From the NCBI GenBank assembly GCA_003058525.1, contig QBVD01000014.1, positions 1 to 39,388 of the forward strand: 39,388 nt of DNA, read 5' to 3'. Made by a program: the position numbers and the translations under genes. The stretch comes from a gamma proteobacterium symbiont of Ctena orbiculata (GTDB lineage: Bacteria; Pseudomonadota; Gammaproteobacteria; Chromatiales; Chromatiaceae). Below, piece after piece: positions 14,074-32,344 of the stretch (its first letter is position 1; every line of letters begins with the position of its first letter). Under the pieces are notes generated by a model. That model saw only the letters and a program-made list of their open reading frames with translations. It did no database searches and was not told the DNA's origin.

Positions 14074-14082
14074 ACATAAAAC

Positions 14083-14109
14083 GGGTGTGCCCGCTGTGCG
14101 GGCGCACCC
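14083..14109 (+). other. Intercistronic hairpin after the LolA-like gene
   Basis: GGGTGTGCCCGC (14083-14094), a TGT loop and GCGGGCGCACCC (14098-14109) form a 12-bp stem with one G-T pair. No T run follows, so it is unlikely to be a simple terminator. It may protect the upstream message or set the expression ratio between genes. Confidence 0.6.
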
Positions 14110-14215
14110 AACAAAAACCGGCTTGCCTGGAATTGGCGGCCATACACATCATCGAATCCGGCAAAGAGTGACAATGAGGGCTGCCGGCTATCGTTGAACC
14201 CGGGAGGAACCATTC

Positions 14216-16444: not shown

Positions 16445-16487
16445 CGCCAAAAACCACCGACCAACGTCGAGCATCTTAACCAAGAGA

Positions 16488-16514
16488 GGATGTCCGGTGA
16501 GATACCGGGCATCC
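16488..16514 (+). other. Intercistronic hairpin before the RND gene
   Basis: GGATGTCCGGT (16488-16498), a GAGAT loop and ACCGGGCATCC (16504-16514) form an 11-bp stem with one G-T pair. As with the hairpin at 14083, no T run follows. Confidence 0.6.
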
Positions 16515-16547
16515 CTCATCAAACAGCGCTTTCACGGGGATTGAGCC

Positions 16548-19373
16548 ATGAGTGGTTCTGAGTCAACCAATGGATCAGGAAATCGATGGGCTGAGGGTTA
16601 TGCGGACTTTGTCATCAAATTCCGCTGGCCGTTGATGCTGATTTTGCTGGTGGTCACCATCGTGGCCGCCCTGCAGATCAAACATCTGGATATGCGCAAT
16701 GATCCGGATACACTGCTGCCTCCAAGCAATCGCTACGTAGCGACCAACCTGTATGCCGAATACAATTTCGGTATGGGTAATCTGATGGTCTTTACCCTGC
16801 GCATCAATGAGGGGGATGTGTATAAGGGGTGGTTCGTCAACAAGGTCCAGGAGATACACAATCGGCTGGTCTCCCTGGAGAAGGCGCGGGAATCGAATTT
16901 TATCGATATCGCGGCGAAGAAGATAAAGTATATGGGGGCGGATGAGAACGGCCTGGTGTTCAAACGCCTGATACCGACGGAAGGGATCAGCAGTGATCCT
17001 GGTATCGCGGAACAGCAGCTGGTGTTTCTCAAAGAGGGCATCGAGACGAACCCCGTTATCGGCCCGATGTTGGTCGGATTTGAGGATGCCGAAGGGAATA
17101 AATGTGAATTTCAGGAGAAGGACGAGAAAAACTGTACTGCCAAGTCGCTCTATATCATCGGCGACTATACCGATGAGGTAAAAGAGATCTACCTGCCCTG
17201 GGTAAGGGAGGTCAGGGCGATGATGGATGAGTATGGTCAGGATGACCGTTTCGAATTGCTGGTGGCGGGTGAGCCCTACTTCCTGGCTTGGATGCTGGCG
17301 GATCTGGTCAACAAGTGGTGGTTGTTCGTCATCTCATTCGCCATCGTGATTGCCGCGCTCTGGTTTGAGTTCCGCAACTGGCGCGGTTCCCTGTTTCCGA
17401 TCATCGGTGTCAGTGCAACGATTGTGCTGACATTGGGATTGATGGGATTCTCTGCCTTCAAGCTGACTACCATGATGGTATTGACACCGATGCTGTTACT
17501 GGCGATCGGTATCGGACACTCGGTCCAGGTGACCCGGCGTTTCATGCAGGAGCAGGCCGATTCGGGGGATTGTGAATCGGCCGCCAGGGTCGCGATCTCC
17601 CATACCATTGTCCCGGCCACCCTTTCGATCGTAACCGATATGGTCGGCTTTGCGACCCTCGCTACAGTGGATATCTCATTCTACAAGGCATACGCCTACT
17701 TCGGCATGTTCGGCATGCTGACCTTGCTGTTTACCACCACCACCCTGATTCCGCTGCTGATGATGACCTTCCCCTGCAGCCGGACGGATATGGGTGAGGG
17801 GCATGAGCAATCGTGGGAAACCAAGGTGGGTGGGGTGATCACCGGTATGTTGAATGGTCCCGGCAAGGCGATTCCGATCCTTTTTGTGATCGCAATATTC
17901 GCCTGGTCTATCTACTATACCGAAATCGGCCGGGGTATTTCGGGCCTGATGGCCGGTGAGGCCGGCAGAGCCGATCCGGAGGTGGCTCGCATACAGGACG
18001 AGTTCGATATCATGCCGGGGGTTGAAAAGGGTATCAATTACTCCCGCGCCGCGTTCAAGGAAAAATCGATCACCATCCAGCATATCGAACGGTTGAATAC
18101 GATCATGCCCGGAGTGATATCGGTATCGATCCCGGTACGCGGCAAGGAACCCGTTGTCGAGCTATGCGTGGATACCTATTTTTCTGAAGATATCTACGAT
18201 ATCGAGGATCCATTGGAAAAGGTTGCCGCCTGTGAAAAGGCGAAGGCTGAATTGGGCTGTTGGGATCCCGACCCTTGTGGCGCCCAGGGTATCTTCAACG
18301 AGGCTGATGTGCTTGCCGACATCGAGGCGATGGAGGAGTGGATGCGCGCCCACCCGTTCATCGGCTTTACCGGCTCCTATGCGCAATACATTCGCTTGGT
18401 GAATATGCTGCTGACGGCGGAACCGGGTGAACAGCCGGATATCGGCGATCTCTATATCCCCACTTCCAAGAAACTGCGTTCCATCGATCCCGACGATGAC
18501 AGGGGCGGTGACGATATCGTTCAGCTCTACAACGGCCTGCTCGAAACCATGACCGAGGAGGGCGACATGGACTCCTTCGTCATGAAGAACTGGAATGAAG
18601 GGGTGGTGATGGGATTCATCAATACCATGGATCCGATAGAGGCCCATGTGGTTACCATGGACATCCAGCAATATATCGAGGAACACAAGAACGATCCCGG
18701 TTTCAGCAAAGTCAACTTCGGTCTGCGCTCCGGTCCGGTCGAAGACCTTTCCGGTGACAGCAACGAGCTGTCTGTCGATGGCACGGACTATGTCAGACCC
18801 GGCGTGGGTGGCTTCCTTGGCGCCACCGAGGCCACCCGCGAGGTGGCGGTGGACAACTGGCTCACCGGGCCTCTGCTGACGGCAGCGGCTGTATTTCTCA
18901 TCGCCGCATTGATATTCCGCTCCGTTGTTGTCCCGGTAATCCTCATGGTGCTGTTGTTCATCACCTTATTTGCCCAGTACGGTCTTGGCGGTTATATGAC
19001 CAGTATCCAGAACTGGTCGGGCAACCTGGCCTTCCATCTCCAGGTGGCGCTGAGTATCGCCATGGGGCTTGGTATCGACTACGGCATCTATATGATGTCG
19101 AGACTTAAAGAGGAGATGGTGGCAACCGCGGGGGATTGGCAGCAGTCATTGGTCAATACCTTGAATACAACCGGCTCGGCGGTAATCATTTCCGTGATCG
19201 TGCTACTCGGTTGTTTCATACCCTTGCTGAATACCGATCTTGCCAACACCTGGGGCTTGGGGGTCTATATCAGCCAGGCCTTGTTGATCGACGTGGTCAC
19301 CGCCCTCACGATCCTGCCGATGATGGTTGCATGGCTGAAACCCAGATTTGTTTTCGGTAGATATAAAAACTAA
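16548..19373 (+). CDS. MMPL/RND superfamily exporter (HAE3-like)
   Basis: This 941-residue inner-membrane transporter has the RND layout: one helix near 27-45, a large periplasmic loop, a block of five helices, a second large loop (about 460-775) and a second six-helix block. The GIGIGHSVQV segment in the first block (about 320) and GLGIDYGIYMMSRLKEE in the second (about 842) are the matching transmembrane motifs carrying the polar residues of this family. Cysteines in both loops (for example CEKAKAELGC) may form disulfides. The HAE3 branch includes lipid and hopanoid transporters. The ATG at 16548 follows GGGGA. With the LolA-like and DUF1302 proteins it probably moves a hydrophobic molecule to the outer membrane; the direction and cargo are inferred. 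Confidence 0.85.
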   Translation: MSGSESTNGSGNRWAEGYADFVIKFRWPLMLILLVVTIVAALQIKHLDMRNDPDTLLPPSNRYVATNLYAEYNFGMGNLMVFTLRINEGDVYKGWFVNKVQEIHNRLVSLEKARESNFIDIAAKKIKYMGADENGLVFKRLIPTEGISSDPGIAEQQLVFLKEGIETNPVIGPMLVGFEDAEGNKCEFQEKDEKNCTAKSLYIIGDYTDEVKEIYLPWVREVRAMMDEYGQDDRFELLVAGEPYFLAWMLADLVNKWWLFVISFAIVIAALWFEFRNWRGSLFPIIGVSATIVLTLGLMGFSAFKLTTMMVLTPMLLLAIGIGHSVQVTRRFMQEQADSGDCESAARVAISHTIVPATLSIVTDMVGFATLATVDISFYKAYAYFGMFGMLTLLFTTTTLIPLLMMTFPCSRTDMGEGHEQSWETKVGGVITGMLNGPGKAIPILFVIAIFAWSIYYTEIGRGISGLMAGEAGRADPEVARIQDEFDIMPGVEKGINYSRAAFKEKSITIQHIERLNTIMPGVISVSIPVRGKEPVVELCVDTYFSEDIYDIEDPLEKVAACEKAKAELGCWDPDPCGAQGIFNEADVLADIEAMEEWMRAHPFIGFTGSYAQYIRLVNMLLTAEPGEQPDIGDLYIPTSKKLRSIDPDDDRGGDDIVQLYNGLLETMTEEGDMDSFVMKNWNEGVVMGFINTMDPIEAHVVTMDIQQYIEEHKNDPGFSKVNFGLRSGPVEDLSGDSNELSVDGTDYVRPGVGGFLGATEATREVAVDNWLTGPLLTAAAVFLIAALIFRSVVVPVILMVLLFITLFAQYGLGGYMTSIQNWSGNLAFHLQVALSIAMGLGIDYGIYMMSRLKEEMVATAGDWQQSLVNTLNTTGSAVIISVIVLLGCFIPLLNTDLANTWGLGVYISQALLIDVVTALTILPMMVAWLKPRFVFGRYKN

Positions 19374-19748: not shown

Positions 19749-22700
19749 TCAACCCTCTGAGTGTTTAAGGAATAGGCTGGAAATGTGCTGGCAGTATTTG
19801 TTGTAATCAAAATCCCTATAGAATGATTGAAACTGATCGACCGGCATGGGCGGGGCGAAGAGGAAGCCTTGGATGATACTGCAGTGATCCTGTCTGTTTC
19901 TCAACATATCCAGTTGCTGGTGGTTCTCAACCCCTTCGGCGACAACCTTCATGTTAAGACTCTTTGCCATCGCGATAATAGCCATAACCAGGGCCTCGTC
20001 CTCACTATTAACATTCATATCGGCAATGAAGGCGCGATCGATCTTGAGTATGTCCACGGGAAATCGCTTCAGATAGCTTAATGAAGAGTAACCGGTACCG
20101 AAGTCATCAACAGCGACACTGATTCCCAGCTCCTTGGCAAATGTGAGCCATTCCAGCGATTCTGCTGTATTTTCCATCATCAGGCTCTCGGTGATTTCAA
20201 ATGTCATATGGGTGGGAGGGGCGCCCGTCTCGATAATCGTCTCCTTGATAAAATCTTTGTCCACGGCGTGCCGATTGCGATAGGCGGACAGGTTGATGGA
20301 AATTGTCATGTGGGCAAGGTCGGTGTTTCTCCATTCAGCCAGCTGCATGGCTGCATGATGGATCACCCATTCACTCAATGGGCGGATCAGGCCTGTCTCT
20401 TCACAGATAGGAATAAATTTGTCAGGTGGAATACGCCCATGTTCGGGGTGGTTCCAGCGAATTAATGCTTCCGTACCGACAATCATGCAGCGTTGATAGT
20501 CCACCAGAGGTTGATAGTAGAGTTCGAACTGCTCCCCGCTGATTGCTTTGCGCAGGTCAGCCTCCAAACGGACATGTTGCTGTATTGCGGTATTCAGCTC
20601 TTCGCTGAAGAATCGATAGGTCTCTCTGCCGCTGTATTTCGCCTGGTACATGGCCAGATCGGCATTGCGTAGCAGGGTGTCAGCCTCGCGTCCGTCATCG
20701 GGGTATTCCGCGATGCCGATGCTGGCGCCTATGTGCACCTCTCGTTCCTTTATCATGAATGTTTTGCCGAGAGCAGTGATGATCTTCTGTGCTAAAACAG
20801 CAAGGTCATCATCACGCTTGATGTTGTGCAGCAGCAGGCTGAACTCGTCACCCGCATGGCGGGCCAGTGTATCGGTTTCTCGAATAAGGCTGCTGATACG
20901 ACCGGCGACGAGCTGCAATAAGAGATCCCCTGCATCGTGGCCGAGACTGTCATTGACCGACTTGAAGCGGTCCAGATCGATAAAGAAAAGTGCAAAACGC
21001 TCATGGTAGCGGCTGCCGCGATTGATCGCCTGTTGCAGTCGCTCGAGAAAAAGTGTGCGGTTCGGCAGACCGGTTAATCCGTCATAATAGGCTTGCCGGT
21101 GAATCTGTTCCTCCGCTTTCTTCTCTTCAGTGATATCGTTTGAGATGCCGGCGTAATGGGTGATATTCCCCTTGCCGTCACGAATGGAGAAAATGGAGAG
21201 ATCGAAAATCCGGTTCGTACCGCTTTTAGTCCTGTTGTTAATCTCTCCTTTCCATCTGCCGGTATTGTCTATGGACTGCCACATCATGCGGTAGAAGGAG
21301 TTGTCGGTCAGGTGAGAGCGTAAGATGGATGGTTTTTTCCCGATTAATTCGTCTGGCTGATAACCGGTCAGGCGCGTAAAAGCAGGGTTGACGCGTTGGA
21401 TAATCACGTTGTTGTCGGTCACGAGGATACCTTCAGACGCGGTGTCGAATACCTCACTTGCCAAAATCATCTCCTGATAGGCAAGGCGCTGCTCTGTCAA
21501 ATCACTAAGCGATGCGGTGAAATGAAGTTCATTGCCGATGGAAAACCGTGATAAGGTTATTTGAAGTGGAAACTCCTTGTTGTCGGCGTGCTTGGCGGTG
21601 TACTCGTCAGTTTGTGGGTCCTCTTCTGACGCTATAGGTTGTGTCAACTGTTGCATCCTGGCTATGAGACGAATGGCGTCATGCGAAGAGGTCAAAAGAT
21701 CTGATATGGCGCTCGATTGAAGTTCGTTCAAGGTGAGCCCGAACATTGATTCGGCACTAGGATTGGCCTCGAGAATCCGACCGGTTGAATCCAACATCAT
21801 GATGCCGTCGGCAACCGATTCCAACAGCGACCGGTTTCGCATTTCACTCTCAGTGATGCGATTCTGTTGTCGAGCGGCCTGTGTTCTATGGCGTGCGATT
21901 ACATAGAAAGTGATTAGGATAATCAGAAACAACGGTATACCGATTAACAGCAGAGGGTGTAAGATCCCGGCTTTGACAGTTTCCAGCTCTGTCGCCTCTA
22001 TATGTGAGACGACGGTCCACGGGTACCCGCTGCTATAGATGACATTTTCATAGACATGGCGATTGCCTTGAGTGATATTGAGTAGATAGGGTTGTGTCTT
22101 GAGCGAGGTCAACATGCCGTGCTCTGTGATTTGTTGCGTATAGTCCGCACTATTGATCTGATGCCATGCATTCGGTAGGTTCTTGGCCAGTGAAAGGTCA
22201 TTGTCGAACATGAATCCCCAGCGCATGGAAGGGTCATGGTGGTAGAGCCAGAATCCCTCGTCATTGAGCAGCGCGATATTACCGAGGCGGTCTTTATATT
22301 GCGCGACGAACTCATTCAGCATCGCTTCCGCCAGGTAATTGATCACTAAAAAGCCGATTGGCTCATCCAACCCGTTTAAAACCGGGGTCGTTAGCCTGAT
22401 GGTCGGTTTGACGGGTGTCTCGATCCTGCCGTGCTCTTTATTCAGATCGAGGGGCGAGATATAGATCTCCTTGGGACTCAGGTTTCTCGCCTCGTAGAAA
22501 TAGTAACGGTTCGATTTGTCTTGCAGTTCTCTGTGCGGGGTGGTTTGTGGTCCTTCTGAACCCCGGTTGACTCTGATCCTCTCCATTCCCCTGTTGTCAA
22601 GAAAACGGATTTGATCATAGCGTTCCTTGATTGCAATTTGGTTCGTGAAATTTTCAGTAATCGCAATCGCTGCTTGCTGGTTGTCTTGCCCTGGTCTCCA

Positions 22701-22931
22701 TTGTTTCAACCCCTCGCTTTGAGTGAGAAGTAAAATATCTGTTATCGGCTCATGAAAAATATTGATGAGCGTCGATGATGCCAATCTGACGTTGTGCTCC
22801 TGTTGGAGCTCGAGCTGCTCGAATCTTGTATCAAGCTGCCACAAATAGACGAGGTAAATTACTAGGAACAGAACGACAGACCAAGGAGCAGCCAGCCTGA
22901 AAAATATTCTTGATAAGGTTTGTGCGGTCAC
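19749..22931 (-). CDS. Membrane-bound dCache-PAS-PAS-GGDEF-EAL c-di-GMP enzyme
   Basis: This 1060-residue protein has a membrane helix at about 13-32, a periplasmic Cache-type sensor (35-320), a second helix (323-345), PAS domains (about 362-480 and 490-605), GGDEF (610-775) and EAL (785-1045). The GGDEF signature is AGDEF (693-697), an accepted active form, and the inhibitory site RETD (684-687) is kept. The EAL domain has EALIRW (821-826), FEITES, DDFGTGYSS, DILKID and VAEGVE, so phosphodiesterase activity is likely. Either or both activities could operate. The start is GTG at 22931. Its sensor is clearly related to that of the orphan Cache-PAS protein at 26509, and it is divergent from the ODP-kinase operon, so the genes probably share one signalling circuit. 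Confidence 0.9.
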   Translation of the reverse strand: MTAQTLSRIFFRLAAPWSVVLFLVIYLVYLWQLDTRFEQLELQQEHNVRLASSTLINIFHEPITDILLLTQSEGLKQWRPGQDNQQAAIAITENFTNQIAIKERYDQIRFLDNRGMERIRVNRGSEGPQTTPHRELQDKSNRYYFYEARNLSPKEIYISPLDLNKEHGRIETPVKPTIRLTTPVLNGLDEPIGFLVINYLAEAMLNEFVAQYKDRLGNIALLNDEGFWLYHHDPSMRWGFMFDNDLSLAKNLPNAWHQINSADYTQQITEHGMLTSLKTQPYLLNITQGNRHVYENVIYSSGYPWTVVSHIEATELETVKAGILHPLLLIGIPLFLIILITFYVIARHRTQAARQQNRITESEMRNRSLLESVADGIMMLDSTGRILEANPSAESMFGLTLNELQSSAISDLLTSSHDAIRLIARMQQLTQPIASEEDPQTDEYTAKHADNKEFPLQITLSRFSIGNELHFTASLSDLTEQRLAYQEMILASEVFDTASEGILVTDNNVIIQRVNPAFTRLTGYQPDELIGKKPSILRSHLTDNSFYRMMWQSIDNTGRWKGEINNRTKSGTNRIFDLSIFSIRDGKGNITHYAGISNDITEEKKAEEQIHRQAYYDGLTGLPNRTLFLERLQQAINRGSRYHERFALFFIDLDRFKSVNDSLGHDAGDLLLQLVAGRISSLIRETDTLARHAGDEFSLLLHNIKRDDDLAVLAQKIITALGKTFMIKEREVHIGASIGIAEYPDDGREADTLLRNADLAMYQAKYSGRETYRFFSEELNTAIQQHVRLEADLRKAISGEQFELYYQPLVDYQRCMIVGTEALIRWNHPEHGRIPPDKFIPICEETGLIRPLSEWVIHHAAMQLAEWRNTDLAHMTISINLSAYRNRHAVDKDFIKETIIETGAPPTHMTFEITESLMMENTAESLEWLTFAKELGISVAVDDFGTGYSSLSYLKRFPVDILKIDRAFIADMNVNSEDEALVMAIIAMAKSLNMKVVAEGVENHQQLDMLRNRQDHCSIIQGFLFAPPMPVDQFQSFYRDFDYNKYCQHISSLFLKHSEG

Positions 22932-23225
22932 GCAATTACCCGGGAAGTAGATTCATCCCTGAGTTATTTGCAATATAACGCCTTGATGATACATGTAGCT
23001 TTACTGTCGGCAACTAGCTTTTTTTCTTTACAGAAATTTGACTGGATTAAGCGCATTGGCCTTGATTTAGGAAATATTTTATAACTTTCGGTATTGCTTG
23101 AGAATTAATTTCCTATCTCTGCTTCAGTGAATTTCCCCTGAGCCGACAACAGTATAGGCGTTGTGTAGATGAGCTGTCGGTTCTCCTATTTCGTCTATAT
23201 TTTGATGGTAATTCGGGGTTGAGTA
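22932..23225. other. Divergent intergenic region of the c-di-GMP locus
   Basis: This AT-rich 294-base region lies between the GGDEF-EAL gene and the ODP operon and must hold both promoters. TGTCGG/CCGACA sequences recur (near 23007, 23142 and 23176) and could be a regulator's half-sites, but spacing is irregular. An antisense frame covering 23124-23615 is a shadow of the ODP gene. Confidence 0.4.
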
Positions 23226-24014
23226 ATGAAAGGAAATCATATTGCGGAATATCGGGATGTCGACCCCGATACTGAGAACCCTGTGCTTCTCTATTGCGAT
23301 GAAGTGCATGAAATCTACTGGTTGGGTATTCCCGAGCACACTGCGTTTCGTAGCAATATCTACCTGATAAAGTCCGGCGATGAAGCGATAATCATTGACC
23401 CGGGACATCAGGCATACTTTGAAAAGACCAGGGAACGCGTAGCCCAGGTAATGGACCCTGAAATGGTCAGTGGCCTCATCATCTGCCACCAGGATCCAGA
23501 TGTTGCGGCATCGATGCCGCAATGGCTGGAAGTTAATCCGAAGATGGCAATCCTCACCACGCCGCGAACGCAAGTCCTTCTGCCCTACTACGGAGTAGGC
23601 GAATATCGCTGGCATGATGTGGTTGAAGAGCCTTCATTCACTTTCAAAAGTGGAAAGAGAATCCATTTTACCGAGGCGCCCTATCTACATTTTGCAGGCG
23701 CATTTACCAGTTTCGATGAATCGAGCGGGTTCCTGTTTTCCGGTGATATATGGGCGGCCATCCAGCTTGAATGGCGCTTGATTGTGGATGATTTCGAAGC
23801 GCATGAGTCGGTACTGGATTTGTTTCATGTGGATTATATGGCTTCAAATATCGCTTGTCGCGGTTATATTGAAAAGATCCGCCAGTACCGGATAAATGCC
23901 ATATTGCCACAACATGGTTCGATTATTGATTCGAATAATGTTGACCATGCCTTGCACTATCTTGAGTCTCTGGTGTGCGGCACTGACATCATTTATCCGT
24001 ATTTGTCGACGTAA
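23226..24014 (+). CDS. ODP: oxygen-binding diiron protein of metallo-beta-lactamase fold
   Basis: This 262-residue soluble protein has the metallo-beta-lactamase fold of flavodiiron proteins but no flavodoxin domain. All six expected iron ligands can be placed: His88-x-Asp90-x-Asp92 (HQDPD), His155 (APYLHFAG), Asp174 (FSGDIW) and His230 (LPQHGS). Spacings of 67 and 19 residues between His88-His155 and His155-Asp174 equal those of flavodiiron enzymes as I recall them. The change of Glu to Asp at position 90 fits the sensor-type ODP group. A member of that group works as an iron/oxygen sensor in Treponema chemotaxis. It heads a four-gene operon; its stop overlaps the kinase start by one base (TAATG). 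Oxygen or peroxide sensing feeding the kinase is inferred. Confidence 0.85.
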   Translation: MKGNHIAEYRDVDPDTENPVLLYCDEVHEIYWLGIPEHTAFRSNIYLIKSGDEAIIIDPGHQAYFEKTRERVAQVMDPEMVSGLIICHQDPDVAASMPQWLEVNPKMAILTTPRTQVLLPYYGVGEYRWHDVVEEPSFTFKSGKRIHFTEAPYLHFAGAFTSFDESSGFLFSGDIWAAIQLEWRLIVDDFEAHESVLDLFHVDYMASNIACRGYIEKIRQYRINAILPQHGSIIDSNNVDHALHYLESLVCGTDIIYPYLST

Positions 24015-24964
24015 TGGTCATTGACACCGATAACAGAATTGAGGCGCTTGAACAGCAGCTCAAGTTGTTTAAGGAATCGTCACGGCAAAGCGATCTAGTG
24101 CGCAAACGTTACCAGGATGCGCTCTCGATCCTTAAGCAGAAGGACTTGGAATTAAAGCAGAGTAAAAAGTTGATCGAGAAGGACCTCGAAATGTTGAAAG
24201 CAATGCAGCAGCAGTTGGTTGAAAAGGAGAAATTAGCGGCATTGGGGTCGCTCGTAGCCGGTGTGGCACATGAGGTAAATACACCGATTGGTGTCGCTAT
24301 GACATCGATATCTGCCTGCAGTGAAGAGATCAGGCAGTTGAAAAAGTCGTATGAGGCTGAAGAGCTTTCCGAAAGTGATATGGATGCGTTTTTTGAAACT
24401 GTTGACGAGTCGATGCGTCTGGCTAAGACGGGTCTCGATCAGGCGGCAAGGTTGATAAGCAGTTTTAAAATGATATCGGTCGATCAGAATATCGACGATA
24501 TTCGGACGATCGATGTGTGCGATTACCTGCGGGATATCATCCGTACTTTTAAGAATCAATTGAAGAAAACAAAGATACAAGTGGAACTGGATTGTCCACA
24601 ACAAATGATGGTAAAGACTTATCCTGGATCGCTGTCGCAAATTATGAATAATCTGCTTTCAAATGTTATCAATCACGCTTATGAGCCGGAGCAATCCGGT
24701 ATCGTTCATATTCAAATCGAGCAAAAAGGGAATCGCCTGAACTTGGTGTTCGAGGACTATGGCAAGGGTATGGACGAGTCATTGAAAGAGAGTATTTTTC
24801 AACCATTTATAACCACGGCGCGAAACAGGGGCGGTAGCGGTCTTGGACTCAATATTGTTTATAATTTAGTTGCCCAGCGCTTTGGCGGCGAGATTGAGGT
24901 CGAGAGCAAACCGGGAAAGGGAAGTCGCTTTAAAATATCGTTAGTGGTGGAAACATTGGAATAG
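24014..24964 (+). CDS. Soluble sensor-less histidine kinase
   Basis: This 316-residue protein has a coiled coil (about 8-72), then the H box LVAGVAHEVNTPIG with phospho-acceptor His86. The catalytic domain follows: N box NNLLSNVINHA (212-222), G1 EDYGKGMD (247-254), F box and G2 GGSGLGLNIVY (273-283). No membrane helix and no sensor domain are present, so its input must come from a partner; the translationally coupled ODP upstream and the Cache-PAS protein at 26509 are the obvious candidates. Its output is probably the REC domain of the next gene, six bases downstream. The H-box type (HEVNTPIG) is common among kinases that pair with c-di-GMP response regulators. Confidence 0.9.
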   Translation: MVIDTDNRIEALEQQLKLFKESSRQSDLVRKRYQDALSILKQKDLELKQSKKLIEKDLEMLKAMQQQLVEKEKLAALGSLVAGVAHEVNTPIGVAMTSISACSEEIRQLKKSYEAEELSESDMDAFFETVDESMRLAKTGLDQAARLISSFKMISVDQNIDDIRTIDVCDYLRDIIRTFKNQLKKTKIQVELDCPQQMMVKTYPGSLSQIMNNLLSNVINHAYEPEQSGIVHIQIEQKGNRLNLVFEDYGKGMDESLKESIFQPFITTARNRGGSGLGLNIVYNLVAQRFGGEIEVESKPGKGSRFKISLVVETLE

Positions 24965-24970
24965 CAAGCG

Positions 24971-26476
24971 ATGGCTAAACTGTTTTTTGCTAAAAAATCA
25001 AAAAAGAAGAGGCTTTCTGAAATAGGATGGAAGATTCTCATTGTCGATGATGACAAGAGTGTACACCAGGTTACAGAACTTGCCTTGAAGCACTTTGATT
25101 ATAAGGGACGCAAACTTAGTTTTATCTCCGCTTATTCGGGTCAGGAAGCGATGGAAATTGCGCGCAAGGAGCGTGATATTGCAATCGTTTTGCTTGATGT
25201 GGTGATGGAGACTGAGAATGCAGGTTTCGACGTGGTCGAGTACATCAGGAATATCCTAGGCAACAACCATATGAGGATCATCCTGCGAACCGGACAGCCC
25301 GGGTATGCGCCTGAGCGATATGTGATCGACCACTACGACATCAACGATTATAAGGAGAAGACTGAACTTACCCAGGAAAAGCTTTATACGGCTGTACGCA
25401 TGGGACTGAAGTCATATGAGTTTATCAGTATACTGAACAGTCAGAAAAGATCGTTGGAGTATATCGTTCAGGCCGCTCCAGCGATATTCAAAATCACCTC
25501 GCTTGAAGACTTTTTCCGCTCCATATTGAATGCCATTATCGATTTGCTGGGTATCTCCGAGGGTCACAGTAAAGTGGATTCACTCACTGGTTTCATTGCT
25601 TACCCGATAACAGAGGATGGCGAGTACAAGATCTGTTATGGAATAAACAATCAGGGGAACTGGGAGGAGGATGAAGAAAAGATTGCCGTAATGCTCCACA
25701 GGCTCCATCCTCAGCTCGACAGTATTCAAGGTGTATTCAACGTGGAAGAGGGGACGTTTGCCATACCGATAAAGGATAAGAATGAGATCGTAGCTGCAAT
25801 ATTGCTGGAAAATCTTGGGCATATCAGTGAACATGCCAAACGTTTGTTGAACATTCTTTCTATGCAGGCAAGCTCTGCATTCAAGAATATCGATCTGTTT
25901 GAGCTGATATCGAGAGAGCATCAGGAGACGATTAATCTTCTCGCGGTTGCTTCTGAATATAAGGATGAAAACACGGGAGAGCATATCAGGAGAATTGAAA
26001 TGATAACCTGTATGCTTGCACAAGAACTTGGTATGAACAAGGAAGATGCTGTGCAGATGGGGCAGGCATCGACACTGCACGATATCGGCAAACTATCGGT
26101 GCCTGACAGTGTTCTGCAAAAGCCGGGTAAGTTGACCCATGAGGAGTTCGATGCAATAAAGTTACATACAGTTAATGGAGAGAAAATACTTGCGGGTCAC
26201 GGACATTTCAAATTAGCCAGTGAAATCGCAAGAACACATCATGAGCACTATGATGGATCAGGTTATCCAAACGGCCTTGCCGGGGATGAAATACCGCTAA
26301 GTGGCAGGATAACTGCATTGGCGGATGTTTATGATGCGCTATCCAATGAAAGGCCTTATAAAGACGCCTGGCCGAATGAGGAGGTAATGGGTCTCATACG
26401 AAGTGAGCGGGGAAAACACTTCGATCCCGATGTTGTAGATGCTTTTTTCAGACTTGTGGAAAAAGATGTTTTATGA
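24971..26476 (+). CDS. Response regulator REC-DUF3369-HD-GYP (c-di-GMP phosphodiesterase)
   Basis: This 501-residue protein has an N-terminal receiver (20-145: acidic DDD at 26-28, phospho-acceptor Asp76 in IVLLDVVM, Lys near 128-130), a DUF3369 domain (about 150-310) and HD-GYP (about 318-495). In HD-GYP, HDIGKLSVPD (His370-Asp371), HHEHYDGSGYP with GYP at 431-433, and ALADVYDAL are intact, so it should hydrolyse c-di-GMP. DUF3369 is a GAF-like domain of unknown ligand. The ATG is six bases after the kinase stop. The expected role is lowering c-di-GMP on phosphorylation by the adjacent kinase, in opposition to the GGDEF activity at 19749. Confidence 0.92.
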   Translation: MAKLFFAKKSKKKRLSEIGWKILIVDDDKSVHQVTELALKHFDYKGRKLSFISAYSGQEAMEIARKERDIAIVLLDVVMETENAGFDVVEYIRNILGNNHMRIILRTGQPGYAPERYVIDHYDINDYKEKTELTQEKLYTAVRMGLKSYEFISILNSQKRSLEYIVQAAPAIFKITSLEDFFRSILNAIIDLLGISEGHSKVDSLTGFIAYPITEDGEYKICYGINNQGNWEEDEEKIAVMLHRLHPQLDSIQGVFNVEEGTFAIPIKDKNEIVAAILLENLGHISEHAKRLLNILSMQASSAFKNIDLFELISREHQETINLLAVASEYKDENTGEHIRRIEMITCMLAQELGMNKEDAVQMGQASTLHDIGKLSVPDSVLQKPGKLTHEEFDAIKLHTVNGEKILAGHGHFKLASEIARTHHEHYDGSGYPNGLAGDEIPLSGRITALADVYDALSNERPYKDAWPNEEVMGLIRSERGKHFDPDVVDAFFRLVEKDVL

Positions 26477-26508
26477 ATTGTATCTTTGCCAATTAATGGA
26501 TTAAGAAA

Positions 26509-27984
26509 GTGAAACGATCACTTATTCGTAAATACGGTAGAATATTTGCCTTGATGTTCGTGCCACCGGTTGCGCTGCTTTTTGGCGTATCCGCCTGGCT
26601 TTATAACACAGATATCGAAAATGGAGCAGTACTAACAAGACAATCGGAGATGCTGAGCCTGAATCAGAGCAAGAGCGTGTTCGAGCAATTGCTGCAAGGT
26701 GCTATACAGGACCTCATGTTTATCGCCGCTGTCGATGATCTTCGTCAGCTTGCAATTCCATCCGCGAGTGATCGATACACTGAGCTTTTGGCGCTTGATT
26801 TTAAGTCAATGGCAGAGAAAAAAGGGCAATTTGACCAGATCCGGTATCTCAATGCCGAGGGAAAGGAGGTGGTAAGGGTTAACTATCGAAACGGAATGGG
26901 TGTCATCGTTCCTGATACTGAATTGCAGGACAAAGGTGGGAGGTACTATTTCACGGAAACAATGAGTAAGGGCCGTGATGAGGTCTTCGTGTCTCCGCTT
27001 GATCTCAACATGGAGCATGGCGAAATAGAGATGCCATTCAAGCCGATGATACGTTTGGCGACGCCTGTCTTTGATGCTTCCGGCAACAAGCGAGGCATGG
27101 TGATAATCAACTATCTTGCCGATAAACTGATCAATTTGCTTGATCAGGGCTTATCGCCTTCGAGCAGTCAGATGTTGCTTAACAAAGAAGGGTATTGGCT
27201 GAAAGGAGAAACAAAAGCCGATGAATGGGGCTTCATGTTTCCGGACAAGAAGGGACTTAAGATATCAAACCGCTACGCTGATGCCTGGAAGCAGATGACA
27301 AGTGCCGATTCGGGACAGTTCACGACAGCTGATGGTTTGTTCAGCTATACAACAGTGGAACCTGAAAAGTTGCTCGATAAATTGGATCTAAAAAAAGAGA
27401 CAATCAACAGCGCAGTAGCCGGTACTGTTCACTGGAAACTTGTACGTTTCATCACAGACGCCGAACTCGATAAACCGGCCATTACATTAGGCAAGCGGTA
27501 TCTTGCAGTGAATGCCTTGCTGGTTTCGATCTTGGGTGTCGTGGCTCTACTGTTGAGTCGTGCTAAATTGTTCAAGATTGATGCGCAACAGCAGCTGCAT
27601 GAAAAGGAAGAGAGAATCAGTGAGATCGTGAATAGTGCCTTTGACGCAATTATCACTATAAATGAACGTGGTGTTATTGAAACCTTCAATCCGGCTGCAT
27701 GCACAATGTTCGGTTACCTTGTGGATGAGATAATTGGGGAAAAGGTCAACATCTTAATGGCCTCCCCGGATCGTGAATACCATGACCTGCATATCCTGAA
27801 CTATATCGATACCGGTGTTGGTAAGTTTGTGGGAAAGCCTGGGCGTGTGACAGGTGTAAAGAGTGATGGAACGACGATACAGATAGAAATCTGCATCGGT
27901 GCAAAGAAGATAAAGGATCACTGGCTATTCACGGCAATCTGTAGACAATACCAAGAGGAACAAAGACAAGTTGAAGTAGGTTAA
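26509..27984 (+). CDS. Orphan Cache-PAS sensor protein, FixL-like PAS, no output domain
   Basis: This 491-residue protein has a membrane helix (11-31), a periplasmic Cache-type domain (about 35-325), a second helix (331-350) and one cytoplasmic PAS domain (367-480), then ends. No kinase, GGDEF or methyl-accepting domain follows. The PAS is strikingly FixL-like (VNILMASPDREYHDLHILNY, then GRVTGVKSDGT): His425 aligns with the haem-binding His200 of FixL and Arg446 with the distal Arg220, so haem and oxygen binding is possible. The positions of FixL Arg206 and His214 are not kept. The start is GTG at 26509 with a weak ribosome binding site, 33 bases after the HD-GYP gene. It presumably signals by contact with the soluble kinase; this is inference. 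Confidence 0.85.
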   Translation: MKRSLIRKYGRIFALMFVPPVALLFGVSAWLYNTDIENGAVLTRQSEMLSLNQSKSVFEQLLQGAIQDLMFIAAVDDLRQLAIPSASDRYTELLALDFKSMAEKKGQFDQIRYLNAEGKEVVRVNYRNGMGVIVPDTELQDKGGRYYFTETMSKGRDEVFVSPLDLNMEHGEIEMPFKPMIRLATPVFDASGNKRGMVIINYLADKLINLLDQGLSPSSSQMLLNKEGYWLKGETKADEWGFMFPDKKGLKISNRYADAWKQMTSADSGQFTTADGLFSYTTVEPEKLLDKLDLKKETINSAVAGTVHWKLVRFITDAELDKPAITLGKRYLAVNALLVSILGVVALLLSRAKLFKIDAQQQLHEKEERISEIVNSAFDAIITINERGVIETFNPAACTMFGYLVDEIIGEKVNILMASPDREYHDLHILNYIDTGVGKFVGKPGRVTGVKSDGTTIQIEICIGAKKIKDHWLFTAICRQYQEEQRQVEVG

Positions 27985-28043: not shown

Positions 28044-28874
28044 TTACCGGGGTTTGATCTTCTTTTTGTTGGCGCGAACCTTCCTTTTTTGATATAGCAA
28101 CTTTCTCAGACGCTCCTTGAGCGGGAGATGGCTGACCGGACAACTTGATGCCAAAGATTGAGGTGTCTTCGGTACCTCTTCCCAGGAATCGACGATCTGG
28201 CCATCAGCCAGTTTGATCAGACGACCAGCGGCTCTCTTTACGTCAGGATCGTGTGAGGAGATGAGGAATGTTGTACCAAGTCTTTGGTTTAGTTCATGCA
28301 TCAAGTTGATCAAGTGTCTACCGGTCATGCTGTCAAGGTTTGCCGTAGGCTCATCGGCAAGTATCAGCTTGGGGCCGGAAGCAAGTGCACGGGCAACAGC
28401 GACACGTTGTTGCTGGCCGCCGGATAACTGGTCCGGCCGACGATACCCGAGATGACCAATCTCCACTTCATGCAACCAGTGATTCGCTATATCCAAACTC
28501 TCCTTCCGGCTCTTACCCTGTAATTGACAGACGTAAGCGACATTTTCACGGGCGGTGAATACACGAATGAGATTATAGGCCTGAAATACAAAGCCGATAT
28601 TGCGTAAGCGAAATTGTGTACGCTGATCCCTGTTCATGTTGAGAATATCATGCCCAAGGACCTCAACATTTCCGTTGTCAGCGGATTCCAGTGCACCGAT
28701 GATGTTTAGTAGCGTACTCTTACCGGATCCGGACCGTCCTGCAACCACTGCGAATTCACCGGGCTTGATATCGAGATTGATGCCGTGGAGTGCGGGAAAA
28801 GGCATGGTGCCGACCCAATAGCACTTATGCAGTTCACGGATACCGATGATCGGTGATTCCTGGTACTTGACCAT
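28044..28874 (-). CDS. ABC transporter ATPase (LolD/MacB-type)
   Basis: This 276-residue ATPase has Walker A GRSGSGKS (46-53), the Q loop in FVFQAYN, the signature LSGGQQQR (150-157), Walker B LILADE (170-175), and the H loop in SSHDPDV. These are the features of the MacB/LolD group that drives FtsX-type permeases. An extra C-terminal tail of about 45 residues ends in a strongly basic stretch (KRKVRANKKKIKPR) not usual for LolD. It lies 142 bases downstream of the second permease on the same strand, so it is probably part of that operon or a closely following unit. A LolCDE-type transporter extracting a lipid or lipoprotein is the likeliest role; the substrate is unknown. Confidence 0.88.
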   Translation of the reverse strand: MVKYQESPIIGIRELHKCYWVGTMPFPALHGINLDIKPGEFAVVAGRSGSGKSTLLNIIGALESADNGNVEVLGHDILNMNRDQRTQFRLRNIGFVFQAYNLIRVFTARENVAYVCQLQGKSRKESLDIANHWLHEVEIGHLGYRRPDQLSGGQQQRVAVARALASGPKLILADEPTANLDSMTGRHLINLMHELNQRLGTTFLISSHDPDVKRAAGRLIKLADGQIVDSWEEVPKTPQSLASSCPVSHLPLKERLRKLLYQKRKVRANKKKIKPR

Positions 28875-29016
28875 AAGTTATATCGAGCCTTGTATCAGGT
28901 GTTTTGACAGGTGATAAAGCTGTCTCCCACTGGGGAGGTATAAGAAAAGCAGTCCTCTTGTATTTCGAAATGTGGTTGAATCTAACAGCATAAGTTGTGT
29001 GTCGTATAATCAAGGG

Positions 29017-30267
29017 TTATTGAATGCGCAGTGCCTGACTTAGAGATAAGTGGGTAGCTCTCCATGCAGGGTAGATGCCTGCCAGCAGTGCCGCAATAAG
29101 TGTCGCACCGAGAATTTTTACTGCAGAGCCCTGAGTCAATTGCGGATGTATGATTGGGTCCATATAAAAAAACTCGAATGCATTCGCGAAATGTGTCAGA
29201 TTTATACCGCTGTCGGCTAGTGCGTAGACGATCGAGCTTCCCGCCAAATAACCTAGAATCGCTCCAATGAATATCAGCATGACGGCTTCCAACAGCAGCA
29301 TGGAGAAGACTTGTGATCTCTTGGTTCCGATGGCAACGATGACACCCAATTCCTTTTGTCTCTCATGCAGGGATATCAGCATGGTATTCAGGATCTCAAT
29401 CAGTACCAGGATGATGACCACCAGAAGAACTACAAAACCGTAGGCATCACTGAACTCAAGCCACTGCTTAACCATAGGATCCAGTTCCTGCCATTGCATG
29501 ATTTCATATTTCCTCTCAGAAAGCTGTTGAGCAAACAGGCGATAAAGGGTGTCGGTATTGTCATGTATATCTGCACGGATGACGATATCTGTGACAGAAT
29601 CCTCCATCTGCAGCCATTGTTGTGCGCTGTTCAGGGTGATCAGAGCCAGGCTTCTGTCTATTTGTGGTGCGCCGGTTTCGAGAATGCCGCGCAGAAAAAA
29701 GACCTCCGAGGTCATTTCGCCATTCAAGCGTTGTACCATCAAGATGACCCTATCGCCGAGTTCCGCACCAAGATTCTGCGCGACAGTATGTCCGAGTACC
29801 AGATCGTGGCTCATCCCCGGTCTCAGCCATACACCTTCAGTGACACGTTGATCCATGGAAGTGACCCATGTCTCCTGCTCCGGGTCGGTTGCCATGATCT
29901 GCAGGCCTACACTGCTGCCTCCCACGGAAGCCAGACCTGAGGTGCGGATGCGTTGTGTCCAACCTACGATTTCCGGGTAACCCTGCATCAATCTTGAAAT
30001 CTCTTCAGGTTCCAGAATCCGGTCATTGAGATTCTGTGATGCTTCAAAGCCCTTGGCGTGGATCTGCAGGTGTCCGGTATAGCTGAGGATGAAATTAGTC
30101 TTCATCTGGCTCAACCAGCCGTCGTTCAAGGCGCTGAGGAGGGTCAATGTGGCAATGCCGAAGCTCATCGTCAGCAAGGTGATCAAGGTGCGGCGTCGGT
30201 TACGCAGAAGATTGCGTGATGCCAGTTGTAAATAGGTGAGCAGATTGAGGCGGTATGATTCAGCCAT
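29017..30267 (-). CDS. FtsX/MacB-type ABC permease 2
   Basis: This 416-residue permease has an N-terminal helix (about 20-45, after the basic NLLRNRRRT), a periplasmic MacB-like domain (45-275) and three C-terminal helices (about 280-300, 325-350 and 380-405) forming the FtsX core. NTMLISLHERQKELGVIVAI is the family's coupling-helix motif, and GIYPAWRATHLSLSQALR is the usual end. The start overlaps the end of permease 1 by eight bases, so the two are translated together and probably form a heterodimer, as LolC and LolE do. Role: mechanotransmission or extrusion of an envelope substrate. Confidence 0.87.
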   Translation of the reverse strand: MAESYRLNLLTYLQLASRNLLRNRRRTLITLLTMSFGIATLTLLSALNDGWLSQMKTNFILSYTGHLQIHAKGFEASQNLNDRILEPEEISRLMQGYPEIVGWTQRIRTSGLASVGGSSVGLQIMATDPEQETWVTSMDQRVTEGVWLRPGMSHDLVLGHTVAQNLGAELGDRVILMVQRLNGEMTSEVFFLRGILETGAPQIDRSLALITLNSAQQWLQMEDSVTDIVIRADIHDNTDTLYRLFAQQLSERKYEIMQWQELDPMVKQWLEFSDAYGFVVLLVVIILVLIEILNTMLISLHERQKELGVIVAIGTKRSQVFSMLLLEAVMLIFIGAILGYLAGSSIVYALADSGINLTHFANAFEFFYMDPIIHPQLTQGSAVKILGATLIAALLAGIYPAWRATHLSLSQALRIQ

Positions 30268-31504
30268 TTCTTATCGCCTCGACTGGTTGCAGCAAGCTGG
30301 CACGCCAGGCGGGATAAATCCCCGCAATCAACGATGCGATAAAAATAATACCACTGGTAATGCCCAGGTGATCGAGTTTGAGATGGGGGTGGATCAGCGG
30401 ATCAACATAGAAGCGAGACGTGGAACCGAGCAGGATCGAAAGATCGATACCGTAGAGGCCGGTGATAAATACGCTGGCATATCCCAGAATAATGCCGAAG
30501 ATTATGCCTGCAATGCCTATTACCGCCGCTTCAATCAGTAGCATCCCGGCTATCTGATAACCTGTCGTGCCGATCGCCATCAAAACGCCGAACTCCCTGG
30601 TCCTTTCCAGCATGGAAATCAGCATGGTATTCAGTTCGCCAGCCAGAACGATGAACAACACCACACCGAGAAAAAGATAGAGAAAACCATTATGCAGAGT
30701 CACCCATTCTTTCATAACGGGAAACATCGTGTACCAGGGCATAACCTCCAGTGATTCGTCTTGCAGGGAGTGCTCGAGTTCTGAAACCAGGGAAGGAATA
30801 TTTCCCTCATCACTGCTGATAACAAAAGTGGTTACCTGGTCGTTTAAATCCATCATCTCCTGAAGTGTTGCAAGACTGGTGATCGCCATGCCTTTATCCA
30901 ATCCCATTTCACCGCTGGTGATGATACCGACCAGGGTGAAAGACTCCGCCACCATTGCGCCGTAGCGATCGTACCCGATAATGATTACTTCATCGCCAAG
31001 TCTGATCTGCAGGTTGTTGGCCGTGGTGGCGCCCAGAATCAGCGCATATTCATCTTCCGGCGCCAGGAAGCGGCCTATGCCGATCCGTTTGGCAAGTTCG
31101 GTGACCCGTCCCTCACGGACAGGATCCATGCCGATAAGCATCACTCCCTGGGTGGTGAAATCGGAAGCGGCCAGACCAAAACTTTCAAGGCGCATACTGT
31201 AGTCAGATATACCGGCCTGATGCAGTGAATCGACGACCCTGCCTGGATTGGTGATGGACTTTGACAGTTCGGGATGCTGAAAAAAACCCTCGCGATGGAT
31301 CTGTATGGAGCCGATGATGGCCTTCTGAAAGTTCCCCAGCATATTGCGATGCAGGCCCTCGTTGAATCCCCAGAGAAAGATCAGCGAGGCTAGGCCTACT
31401 GCAATTGCCCCGATGGTCAAGAGCGTTCGTCGTCTGTGTGTGAGCAGATTTCTCAGCGCCACAGTCAGGATGGTGTGGACGACTGTTGTGGTCGACAGGC
31501 TCAT
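30260..31504 (-). CDS. FtsX/MacB-type ABC permease 1
   Basis: This 414-residue permease is homologous to its neighbour: basic N terminus with NLLTHRRRTLLTIGAIAVG, first helix at about 25-45, periplasmic MacB-like domain, then three helices with the coupling motif NTMLISMLERTREFGVLMAI and the ending GIYPAWRASLLQPVEAIR. The two permeases differ enough in sequence to be specialised partners. The upstream LolA-like gene ends about 80 bases before. It is part of the LolA-like, permease, permease, ATPase series on the minus strand. Confidence 0.87.
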   Translation of the reverse strand: MSLSTTTVVHTILTVALRNLLTHRRRTLLTIGAIAVGLASLIFLWGFNEGLHRNMLGNFQKAIIGSIQIHREGFFQHPELSKSITNPGRVVDSLHQAGISDYSMRLESFGLAASDFTTQGVMLIGMDPVREGRVTELAKRIGIGRFLAPEDEYALILGATTANNLQIRLGDEVIIIGYDRYGAMVAESFTLVGIITSGEMGLDKGMAITSLATLQEMMDLNDQVTTFVISSDEGNIPSLVSELEHSLQDESLEVMPWYTMFPVMKEWVTLHNGFLYLFLGVVLFIVLAGELNTMLISMLERTREFGVLMAIGTTGYQIAGMLLIEAAVIGIAGIIFGIILGYASVFITGLYGIDLSILLGSTSRFYVDPLIHPHLKLDHLGITSGIIFIASLIAGIYPAWRASLLQPVEAIRNG

Positions 31505-31585
31505 CAGCTCCCCAGGAAGAAATAAAAGAGATCCCTGCGATCAAGGATATAGCATAATCGGAAATACTTTCGAAGCGATGTTGCG

Positions 31586-32344
31586 CTATTTTCTCTTGGC
31601 CGGGTTAAAGATATCGTCCGCCAGTGGGACATTGAATTGGATTGATTTCAATGTGATGACGGTTCTTTTGCCAGGTTGATCTTGGGGTGCCATGGTCCAG
31701 CGGGTTGGGATGAGTCGACCGTCCATAATCCTGATCTGGTCAAAAGTCATGCGTCGGTTTGCCATTTTCTCGCATTGATATTCCATCTCCAACGGAATGC
31801 CATTGGCGCGGATGCGCTGGATCAACCGTTTCCAGGTCACCGCAGCTGTGGCAGATGGGGTTGATTCGATTGTCACAATAGCCTGTTCACCCACCCCTTC
31901 ACGGGTAACGATACGGTGACTGTATTGATCGACCAGCGAATCTGTCTCCAGCAGGTCCTGATTAAGGAAATCGGAACCCATCCAGGGATCTTGCATCATT
32001 GCCGGTGAGATATTGATCTGTCTGCGAAGTTTGGGCAGGTACATGGAGAGGATATTGTTGACCTTGAGGTAGACAGTACCCTTTGTTTTGCGCGGGGAGA
32101 GGATTTCCATGCGGAAGCGGTTGTTGTCGATGTCATCGTGACTGCGGAATGACATCGTGCGTTGCCAGTCAGGCCGAATAATATCGACCTGATACTCAGC
32201 GACGGTGCCGCTGGAACGCATCAATGTTTCGGTCTTTCTCAGCAGATCGACAGCCTCCTGTTCGGTCTCACCCGCCAGGCTCCCGCTGCTGCAGATGATC
32301 AGGAACCACAAAGCCTGAATTAATCCTTTCATGAAAAAACTCAC
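31586..32344 (-). CDS. LolA-like outer-membrane lipoprotein-sorting family protein (PF17131-type), ABC-linked
   Basis: This 252-residue periplasmic protein has a signal peptide (about 5-24, ending SGSLAGET). The core KGTVYLKVNNILSMYLPKLR followed by ISPAMMQDPWMGSDFLNQDL is a clear signature of the LolA-like family (PF17131). It is shorter than the paralogue at 13096 and associated with FtsX-type permeases instead of an MMPL transporter. It is the first gene of the series; AGGAG lies 11 bases before the ATG, and an AT-rich promoter region precedes it. It would receive the substrate from the two permeases and carry it across the periplasm. True LolA is smaller (about 200 residues), so this is a relative and not LolA itself. 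Confidence 0.85.
   Translation of the reverse strand: MSFFMKGLIQALWFLIICSSGSLAGETEQEAVDLLRKTETLMRSSGTVAEYQVDIIRPDWQRTMSFRSHDDIDNNRFRMEILSPRKTKGTVYLKVNNILSMYLPKLRRQINISPAMMQDPWMGSDFLNQDLLETDSLVDQYSHRIVTREGVGEQAIVTIESTPSATAAVTWKRLIQRIRANGIPLEMEYQCEKMANRRMTFDQIRIMDGRLIPTRWTMAPQDQPGKRTVITLKSIQFNVPLADDIFNPAKRK

Follow-up and report, generated by a model that had tools for sequence, protein, structure and literature searches.

The stretch of DNA analysed here, referred to as the window, is 39,388 nucleotides long (positions 1 to 39,388 of contig QBVD01000014.1, assembly GCA_003058525.1) and comes from a gammaproteobacterial symbiont of Ctena orbiculata, and it carries an operon of four genes that encode an ODP, a soluble histidine kinase, a response regulator with REC, DUF3369 and HD-GYP domains, and a membrane protein with Cache and PAS domains (Table 1). 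The source genome comprises 4.74 Mb in 112 contigs. The closest named record to the window kinase is that of Candidatus Thiodiazotropha endolucinida (L055, 94% identity), which points to Ca. Thiodiazotropha as the most likely genus; its members are sulfur-oxidising clam symbionts (lifestyle partly from PMC11171427). All four genes are intact and lie on the plus strand; the ODP and kinase genes share a 1-base stop-start overlap (TAATG), followed by gaps of 6 and 32 bases. A first-pass annotation of the sequence had placed the four genes in this way, and the coordinates of the open reading frames (ORFs) confirmed it.

Table 1. Features of the operon and its surroundings in the window
Feature	Position	Strand	Description
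ODP	23226..24014	+	262 aa, stand-alone di-iron metallo-beta-lactamase-fold sensor; PF19583, PDB 6qrq/6qnm, HDDHDH alignment
Soluble histidine kinase	24014..24964	+	316 aa; ~75 residues ahead of the HisKA box, sensor domain not found
Response regulator REC-DUF3369-HD-GYP	24971..26476	+	501 aa; conserved phospho-acceptor Asp, HD and GYP motifs
Membrane Cache-PAS protein without output domain	26509..27984	+	491 aa, GTG start; PAS closest to the FixL heme-PAS
Cache-PAS-PAS-GGDEF-EAL gene	19749..22931	-	divergent neighbour, same variable site; not counted in the operon
Divergent intergenic region	22932..23225	.	presumed location of the operon promoter; GC 38.8%
MMPL gene	16548-19373		flanks the operon on one side
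ABC gene	28044-28874		flanks the operon on the other side

The first gene product matched the Pfam model PF19583 at 197.2 bits against a curated cut-off of 27.2, and its nearest solved structures in a PDB search were 6qrq (E 5.8e-38) and 6qnm (E 5.6e-33), which are ODP entries of the Treponema/Thermotoga type. The six di-iron positions claimed for this protein in the first-pass annotation are indeed all filled, by H88, D90 and D92 (HQDPD at 88), H155, D174 and H230; these are presumably the di-iron ligands, as the alignment to 6qrq supports, and the HDDHDH letters are common to 90 of 93 aligned ODPs. The second ligand is usually Glu in flavodiiron proteins and is Asp here, a point that goes beyond the earlier annotation, as does the likeness of the fourth protein's PAS to the heme-PAS of FixL. 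Pfam gave ODP and Lactamase_B alone for this protein, with no flavodoxin or rubredoxin domain, and hydropathy indicated no membrane-like stretch in the ODP, the kinase or the regulator. The window ODP is predicted to bind Fe(II) and O2.

The second gene product contains a HATPase_c domain (83.5 bits), the motif AHEVNT at 85 and the N and G boxes, and both Pfam and hydropathy agree with its description as a kinase without a sensor or membrane part. Its H-E-x-x-T motif (HEVNT) fits the phosphatase motif quoted in PMC12570481, which suggests that the protein, as predicted from its sequence, has both kinase and phosphatase activity. Kinases without a sensor domain also lie downstream of ODPs in the loci L117, L182 and L185. 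The ODP and kinase genes are in different frames in the window, and in G019 the ODP stop directly precedes the kinase start. In G004, a sister species, ODP and kinase form one continuous ORF of 580 residues (L041:8743-10485). In G006 the first bases of the kinase contig encode part of the ODP C-terminus, and the reading frame crosses the same junction uninterrupted, while the remaining part of the ODP ends another contig. Because G004 and G006 show the same junction, an assembly error is argued against, and the natural fusion is the strongest sequence evidence here for ODP and kinase acting together.

The regulator scored above the Pfam cut-offs for Response_reg (33.8 bits), DUF3369 (64.9 bits) and HD_5 (127.2 bits). 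Its motifs VDDDK at 25, LLDVVM at 74, LHDIGK at 369 and HHEHYDGSGYP at 423 are intact, so that the HD-GYP domain is complete, as had been noted before, and the protein is predicted to hydrolyse cyclic di-GMP (c-di-GMP). Membership of the NosR family (NF053512) was considered and rejected: the regulator reached 146.4 bits against a cut-off of 400, and the match lay mostly in the HD-GYP part.

On balance, we favour the reading that the operon is an auxiliary-sensor two-component system in which the ODP sets the kinase and so the hydrolysis of c-di-GMP, and we regard this as rather probable. The cytoplasmic di-iron site of the ODP would bind Fe(II) and O2 or respond to a related redox signal, and the ODP would touch the soluble kinase directly at its N-terminal coiled region. 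Through this contact the kinase would switch between its autokinase and its phosphatase state; its phosphate would go to the REC domain of the regulator, whose c-di-GMP phosphodiesterase activity would change on phosphorylation. The gene order, the intact residues, the ODP-kinase fusion in the sister species and the association of closely related ODPs with signalling partners are observed; iron and oxygen binding, direct contact, phosphotransfer and hydrolysis in this operon are what we infer. The control of the kinase/phosphatase balance and of the HD-GYP protein by the ODP is taken by analogy with the NosP-NosK-NosR system and the ODP of Treponema. The earlier annotation had proposed the ODP and the Cache-PAS protein as separate trans-acting inputs to one kinase. 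The ODP half of this proposal gains support from the G004 fusion, the G006 junction and the partner counts given below, whereas the Cache-PAS half stays unproven, the G019 locus being without that gene; the line from kinase to regulator to HD-GYP output is supported by operon order and intact residues.

The split sensor design had been called unusual, a view that is not supported in that form, as there are published precedents in NosP-NosK-NosR (PMC12570481), HnoX-HnoK-HnoB (PMC8846402) and the Treponema ODP (PMC7666581, PMC6978683). In Burkholderia, the FIST-domain nitric oxide sensor NosP changes the autophosphorylation of a sensor-less kinase, NosK, which phosphorylates the REC-HD-GYP regulator NosR, and the sign of the response in NosP systems differs between species (PMC12570481). 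The window operon resembles this system in having a separate cytoplasmic sensor, an adjacent soluble kinase without a recognised sensory domain and a REC-HD-GYP regulator in one operon, and in the phosphatase motif of the kinase (H-E-x-x-T/N in NosK). It differs in that its first gene encodes a di-iron ODP of the metallo-beta-lactamase (MBL) fold instead of a heme FIST protein, its regulator contains DUF3369 and retains both the HD and the GYP motif where NosR has HG-GTP, and there is an extra Cache-PAS gene. The HnoX-HnoK-HnoB/HnoD system of Shewanella likewise combines an auxiliary gas sensor, a kinase and a c-di-GMP phosphodiesterase regulator (PMC8846402). In the window, an ODP takes the place of the heme H-NOX nitric oxide sensor. 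The main regulator of the HnoX-HnoK-HnoB system is EAL-type, and that of the window operon is HD-GYP. Auxiliary gas sensors on c-di-GMP two-component systems are therefore already known, and it is the type of sensor that differs here from the nitric oxide circuits.

The Treponema ODP, of the same sensor family, is an auxiliary subunit of a cytoplasmic chemoreceptor without sensing modules (PMC7666581, PMC6978683), and thus likewise serves a signalling protein that has no sensing module of its own; the output is CheA chemotaxis there and would be HD-GYP, reached through a two-component system, here. Among the ODP groups of Muok 2019, as given in PMC7319448, are those that share an operon with signal transduction genes or are fused to them, and the GGDEF fusions counted below fall under these groups; the account of the groups in the available text of PMC7319448 names neither c-di-GMP domains nor an ODP-kinase-HD-GYP operon. 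Hemerythrin (Bhr) diguanylate cyclases and HD-GYP proteins are alike in coupling non-heme di-iron sensing of O2 or redox state to c-di-GMP enzymes (PMC8846402), but they have an unrelated fold, are fused in cis and use no kinase step. An MBL-fold di-iron sensor is not listed in the available part of this 2022 census of c-di-GMP inputs, in which the words 'diiron' and 'lactamase' were not found. An ODP-kinase-HD-GYP operon was not found in the published literature searched, a partial collection.

The family-wide ODP search covered 194 genomes, and 43 rows from outside the genus at E <= 3.2e-29 were classified, this line having been set by eye after 15 of the 43 loci had already been viewed. Thirty-four of these close relatives are fused to GGDEF, and the other nine are followed on the same strand by a gene for a GGDEF, GGDEF-EAL or hybrid kinase protein (the genes overlap or lie no more than 10 bases apart in eight cases and are 208 bases apart in one). 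By comparison, 21 of 418 non-adjacent ORFs carry such a domain at all 81 loci classified in the family and class sets. Given the ODP-kinase fusion and these partner counts against the background, the association of these close ODPs with signalling partners is above chance. The GG[DE]EF motif is kept in all 37 fused GGDEF domains (34 in the family set and three in the class set). In a phylum-wide search of 398 genomes, 16 rows other than our own at 49-57% identity were read in larger loci, further rows being partly seen. Fifteen of the 16 have a partner, namely a kinase in ten (seven downstream, three upstream), a PAS-HD-GYP protein in three (L275, L277, L278) and GGDEF in two (separate in L179, fused in L269); the remaining row, G752, ends at a contig edge.

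Several results weigh against the favoured reading or narrow it. Among the 24 weaker family rows from outside the genus, which stand outside the count of 43, eight were examined and six of these have no partner, the others being one GGDEF fusion and one ODP-kinase-REC operon. At class level, 38 of 56 non-genus rows were examined (the G301 contig ends at the ODP), and 28 of the 38 are without a partner, seven are followed by a partner gene and three are fused. Two of the class-level ODPs have cheR as a neighbour, and one of these has cheB as well, which is what chemotaxis ODPs would be expected to show. These partnerless rows and chemotaxis neighbours rule out that every ODP is a c-di-GMP sensor, and since most distant rows lack a partner, the presence of an ODP alone is no sign of c-di-GMP signalling. 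An order-level search of 188 genomes outside the genus, in an incomplete sample with one genome per species, did not find the exact four-gene set. The HisKA match of the window kinase, at 21.2 bits, is under the Pfam cut-off of 26.9, and gene adjacency is no proof that the operon kinase phosphorylates the operon regulator. Within the genus, G002 has the full gene order but an in-frame TAG inside the ODP, so that the ODP may be dispensable or decaying there, and no close ODP was found in the G016 assembly.

In the ODP clade nearest the window, the link to c-di-GMP enzymes and kinases is nevertheless strong and includes direct pairs with HD-GYP proteins, and it does not extend to the distant ODPs. 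A tree built from 93 ODPs places the window ODP in a clade of 60 rows (100/100), nearly all of which have a fused or adjacent signalling partner; the exceptions are G018, with a nearby kinase on the other strand, and a G008 paralogue whose partner is a PAS stub. The five ODPs of the operon group together in a single clade (100/100). A smaller tree has a 28-row clade (95/85) in which ODPs paired with cyclases, kinases and HD-GYP proteins are intermingled. The operon clade adjoins cyclase-paired ODPs by weak forks, 90/28 in the 93-ODP tree and 89/71 and 87/81 in the smaller tree. The branches between the two main groups are long, for which the tree program gave a warning. An exchange of partners among ODPs is clear.

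Some further features of these relatives were recorded. About 190 residues lie between the domains of the ODP-GGDEF fusions (L105-L112, L118-L120 and others), without a Pfam match in those scanned (e.g. L107), and this linker may be an undescribed transmitter domain; some fusions have N-terminal extensions and exceed 1600 residues in total. In the phylum loci L274, L276 and L279 the kinase precedes the ODP, and two of these loci, L274 and L279, encode another kinase and a REC protein upstream as well. An ODP-hybrid kinase pair in G503 (L185:9928-11565) stands tail to tail with a GAF-HD-GYP gene. A second ODP of the window's own genome, 54% identical to the first, precedes a PAS-GGDEF gene (G000:C71, L036:9385-11256) and is broken; the pair is intact in G005 (L047), a genome of the same species, so within a single cell lineage ODPs are paired both with a cyclase and, via the kinase, with a phosphodiesterase.

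The ODP could also be an enzyme, an O2 or nitric oxide scavenger or a hydrolase, that is merely co-expressed with the other genes, the real sensor being the Cache-PAS protein. The ODP belongs to the flavodiiron reductase superfamily and shows weak matches to nitric oxide reductase flavorubredoxin models, and the Cache-PAS protein is the sole obvious membrane sensor in the operon. The lack of an attached flavodoxin or rubredoxin domain, the fusion of ODPs to the kinase in G004 and to GGDEF in the majority of close relatives, and the G019 locus, where ODP, kinase and regulator are kept without Cache-PAS, all speak against an enzyme, which we therefore consider distinctly improbable.

The fourth protein had been described as a sensor without output, in agreement with Pfam, which gave HK_sensor_dom_bact (PF21623) at 99 bits, PAS at 40.4 bits and dCache_1 at 39.4 bits, the last under its cut-off of 45; hydropathy indicated two membrane-like stretches. 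The best PDB match of its PAS domain was FixL (E 3.4e-18). The FixL heme-ligand histidine (BjFixL His200) is aligned at position 425 and kept in 7/7 orthologues, while BjFixL Arg206 (propionate) and Arg220 (distal) are replaced by Asn and Gly in 7/7 orthologues, with an Arg one place further on; the roles of these three FixL residues are described in PMC10765370. Because the histidine is kept and the arginine positions are changed, heme binding by the Cache-PAS protein is possible and O2 binding in the manner of FixL is doubtful. An AlphaFold2 model, built from a three-row alignment, had a mean predicted local distance difference test score of 35.9, too low for the model to be of use. With weak support, the protein is taken as a probable co-receptor in the membrane, or as one that modulates this same output.

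Alternatively, ODP, kinase and HD-GYP protein may be the working unit, and the Cache-PAS protein, giving no input to the kinase, would be an accessory remnant or would work with other Cache proteins, for example the product of the divergent GGDEF-EAL gene. This would suit its rate of change, for it diverges fastest between window and G008 (66% identity against 93% for the regulator), its absence from the G019 locus, and the sensor family that it has in common with the divergent gene, the Cache parts being 29-30% identical. However, the gene is kept by the operon in G002, G004, G005, G006, G008 and G016, which are, G019 excepted, the other genomes readable past the regulator, and it is under constraint, with ratios of nonsynonymous to synonymous divergence (dN/dS) of 0.21 and 0.10. 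The shared Cache family is not specific, having four further matches in the source genome, and G008, G004 and G006 retain the Cache-PAS gene although their site lacks the divergent gene. We regard this reading of the Cache-PAS protein as unlikely. The divergent GGDEF-EAL gene was itself rejected as a fifth operon member: it is present without the operon in G018 and G020 (and broken in G012), and the operon is present without it in G004 and G008, so the gene is gained and lost independently.

An orthologous ODP was found at this site in seven of the 22 genus genomes (G000, G002, G004, G005, G006, G008, G019), and the regulator at >=80% identity in eight, these seven and G016. The full order ODP, kinase, regulator, Cache-PAS with all genes intact occurs in the window, G005 and G008, and G004 has it with ODP and kinase fused. 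In G006 the operon is spread over two contigs; the G019 locus has a second regulator copy and a kinase fragment where Cache-PAS is missing; the G016 contig starts inside the regulator and holds its end and a shortened Cache-PAS gene with a truncated PAS end. Seven of the 14 or 15 genomes without the operon were inspected at the site. The MMPL and ABC genes adjoin in G001, G003, G007 and G013, with 78-217 bases between the BLAST hits and neither ODP operon nor GGDEF-EAL gene, whereas G018 and G020 have a GGDEF-EAL orthologue (55-61%) by the ABC gene without the ODP operon, and G012 has pieces of one. In G004 and G006 the MMPL and ODP genes are separated by an ORF labelled by eye as methyltransferase-like. 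The genes of the operon behave as one unit of gain or loss, at a site that is a hotspot for signalling genes. Regulator relatives in 15 of the 188 non-genus genomes (E <= 1e-60) are 33-41% identical, and in non-genus genomes with both such a relative and a family-search ODP row the two are not neighbours. Rare co-occurrence of the four genes elsewhere, named earlier as an outcome that would refute the proposal, is thus seen in part: the exact set was seen in this genus alone, and ODPs with c-di-GMP enzymes or kinases recur widely.

Such a patchy distribution raises the question of whether the operon is a low-GC mobile signalling cassette decaying in the symbiont lineage without present function. 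Its GC content is 45.3% against 51.1% for the window, and its third-position GC is 0.48-0.53 against 0.67-0.70 in three upstream genes; only seven or eight of the 22 genomes have it, the ODP is interrupted in G002 and the PAS end truncated in G016, and the cyclase-paired ODP paralogue is broken in the window's own genome. Decay is hard to reconcile with four intact window genes whose dN/dS is 0.03-0.21 (nine window comparisons with computable synonymous divergence, dS; six others saturated) and with a gene order that is kept between species even where dS is high or saturated, and we consider it very improbable.

As far as the literature seen tells, published functional work on ODPs lies in chemotaxis only. 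If the ODP controls the kinase and its relatives control their fused GGDEFs, they would form a class of oxygen/iron input to biofilm and motility decisions, and experiments on such input could then use small soluble proteins; the natural fusion of ODP and kinase provides a single-polypeptide construct for direct measurement of the signal step. For sulfur-oxidising clam symbionts at the oxic-sulfidic border, this would be a candidate link from oxygen to attachment or dispersal. A broader idea, which we put forward tentatively and hold to be possible but not likely, is that ODPs are a little-noticed plug-in O2/Fe(II) input for the c-di-GMP networks of Pseudomonadota. A single clade would have exchanged its outputs, which include cyclases (both fused and separate), hybrid kinases, HD-GYP enzymes and the relay from a kinase to HD-GYP; depending on the lineage, one and the same signal could then increase or decrease c-di-GMP. 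The single phosphodiesterase of this operon would receive input from two oxygen-type sensors that differ in chemistry, the di-iron ODP in the cytoplasm and the Cache protein with a FixL-like heme-PAS in the membrane.

A promoter and terminator scan, which took in the divergent intergenic region, gave 10 and 4 matches, where shuffles would lead one to expect 9.9 and 4.2, and so did not stand out from chance. At the same site, G018, G012 and G020 (L287, L288, L289) contain another signalling cluster with a large hybrid kinase, a REC-HD-GYP protein and further kinase genes. The surroundings encode LolA-like and MMPL proteins on one side (13096-19373), and a MacB/FtsX-type exporter and another LolA-like protein on the other (28044-32344), and the site can be seen as a signalling hotspot between two envelope transport clusters. 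Between the LolA-like and MMPL genes, a 742-residue protein without a Pfam match (14216-16444) is conserved in the genus.

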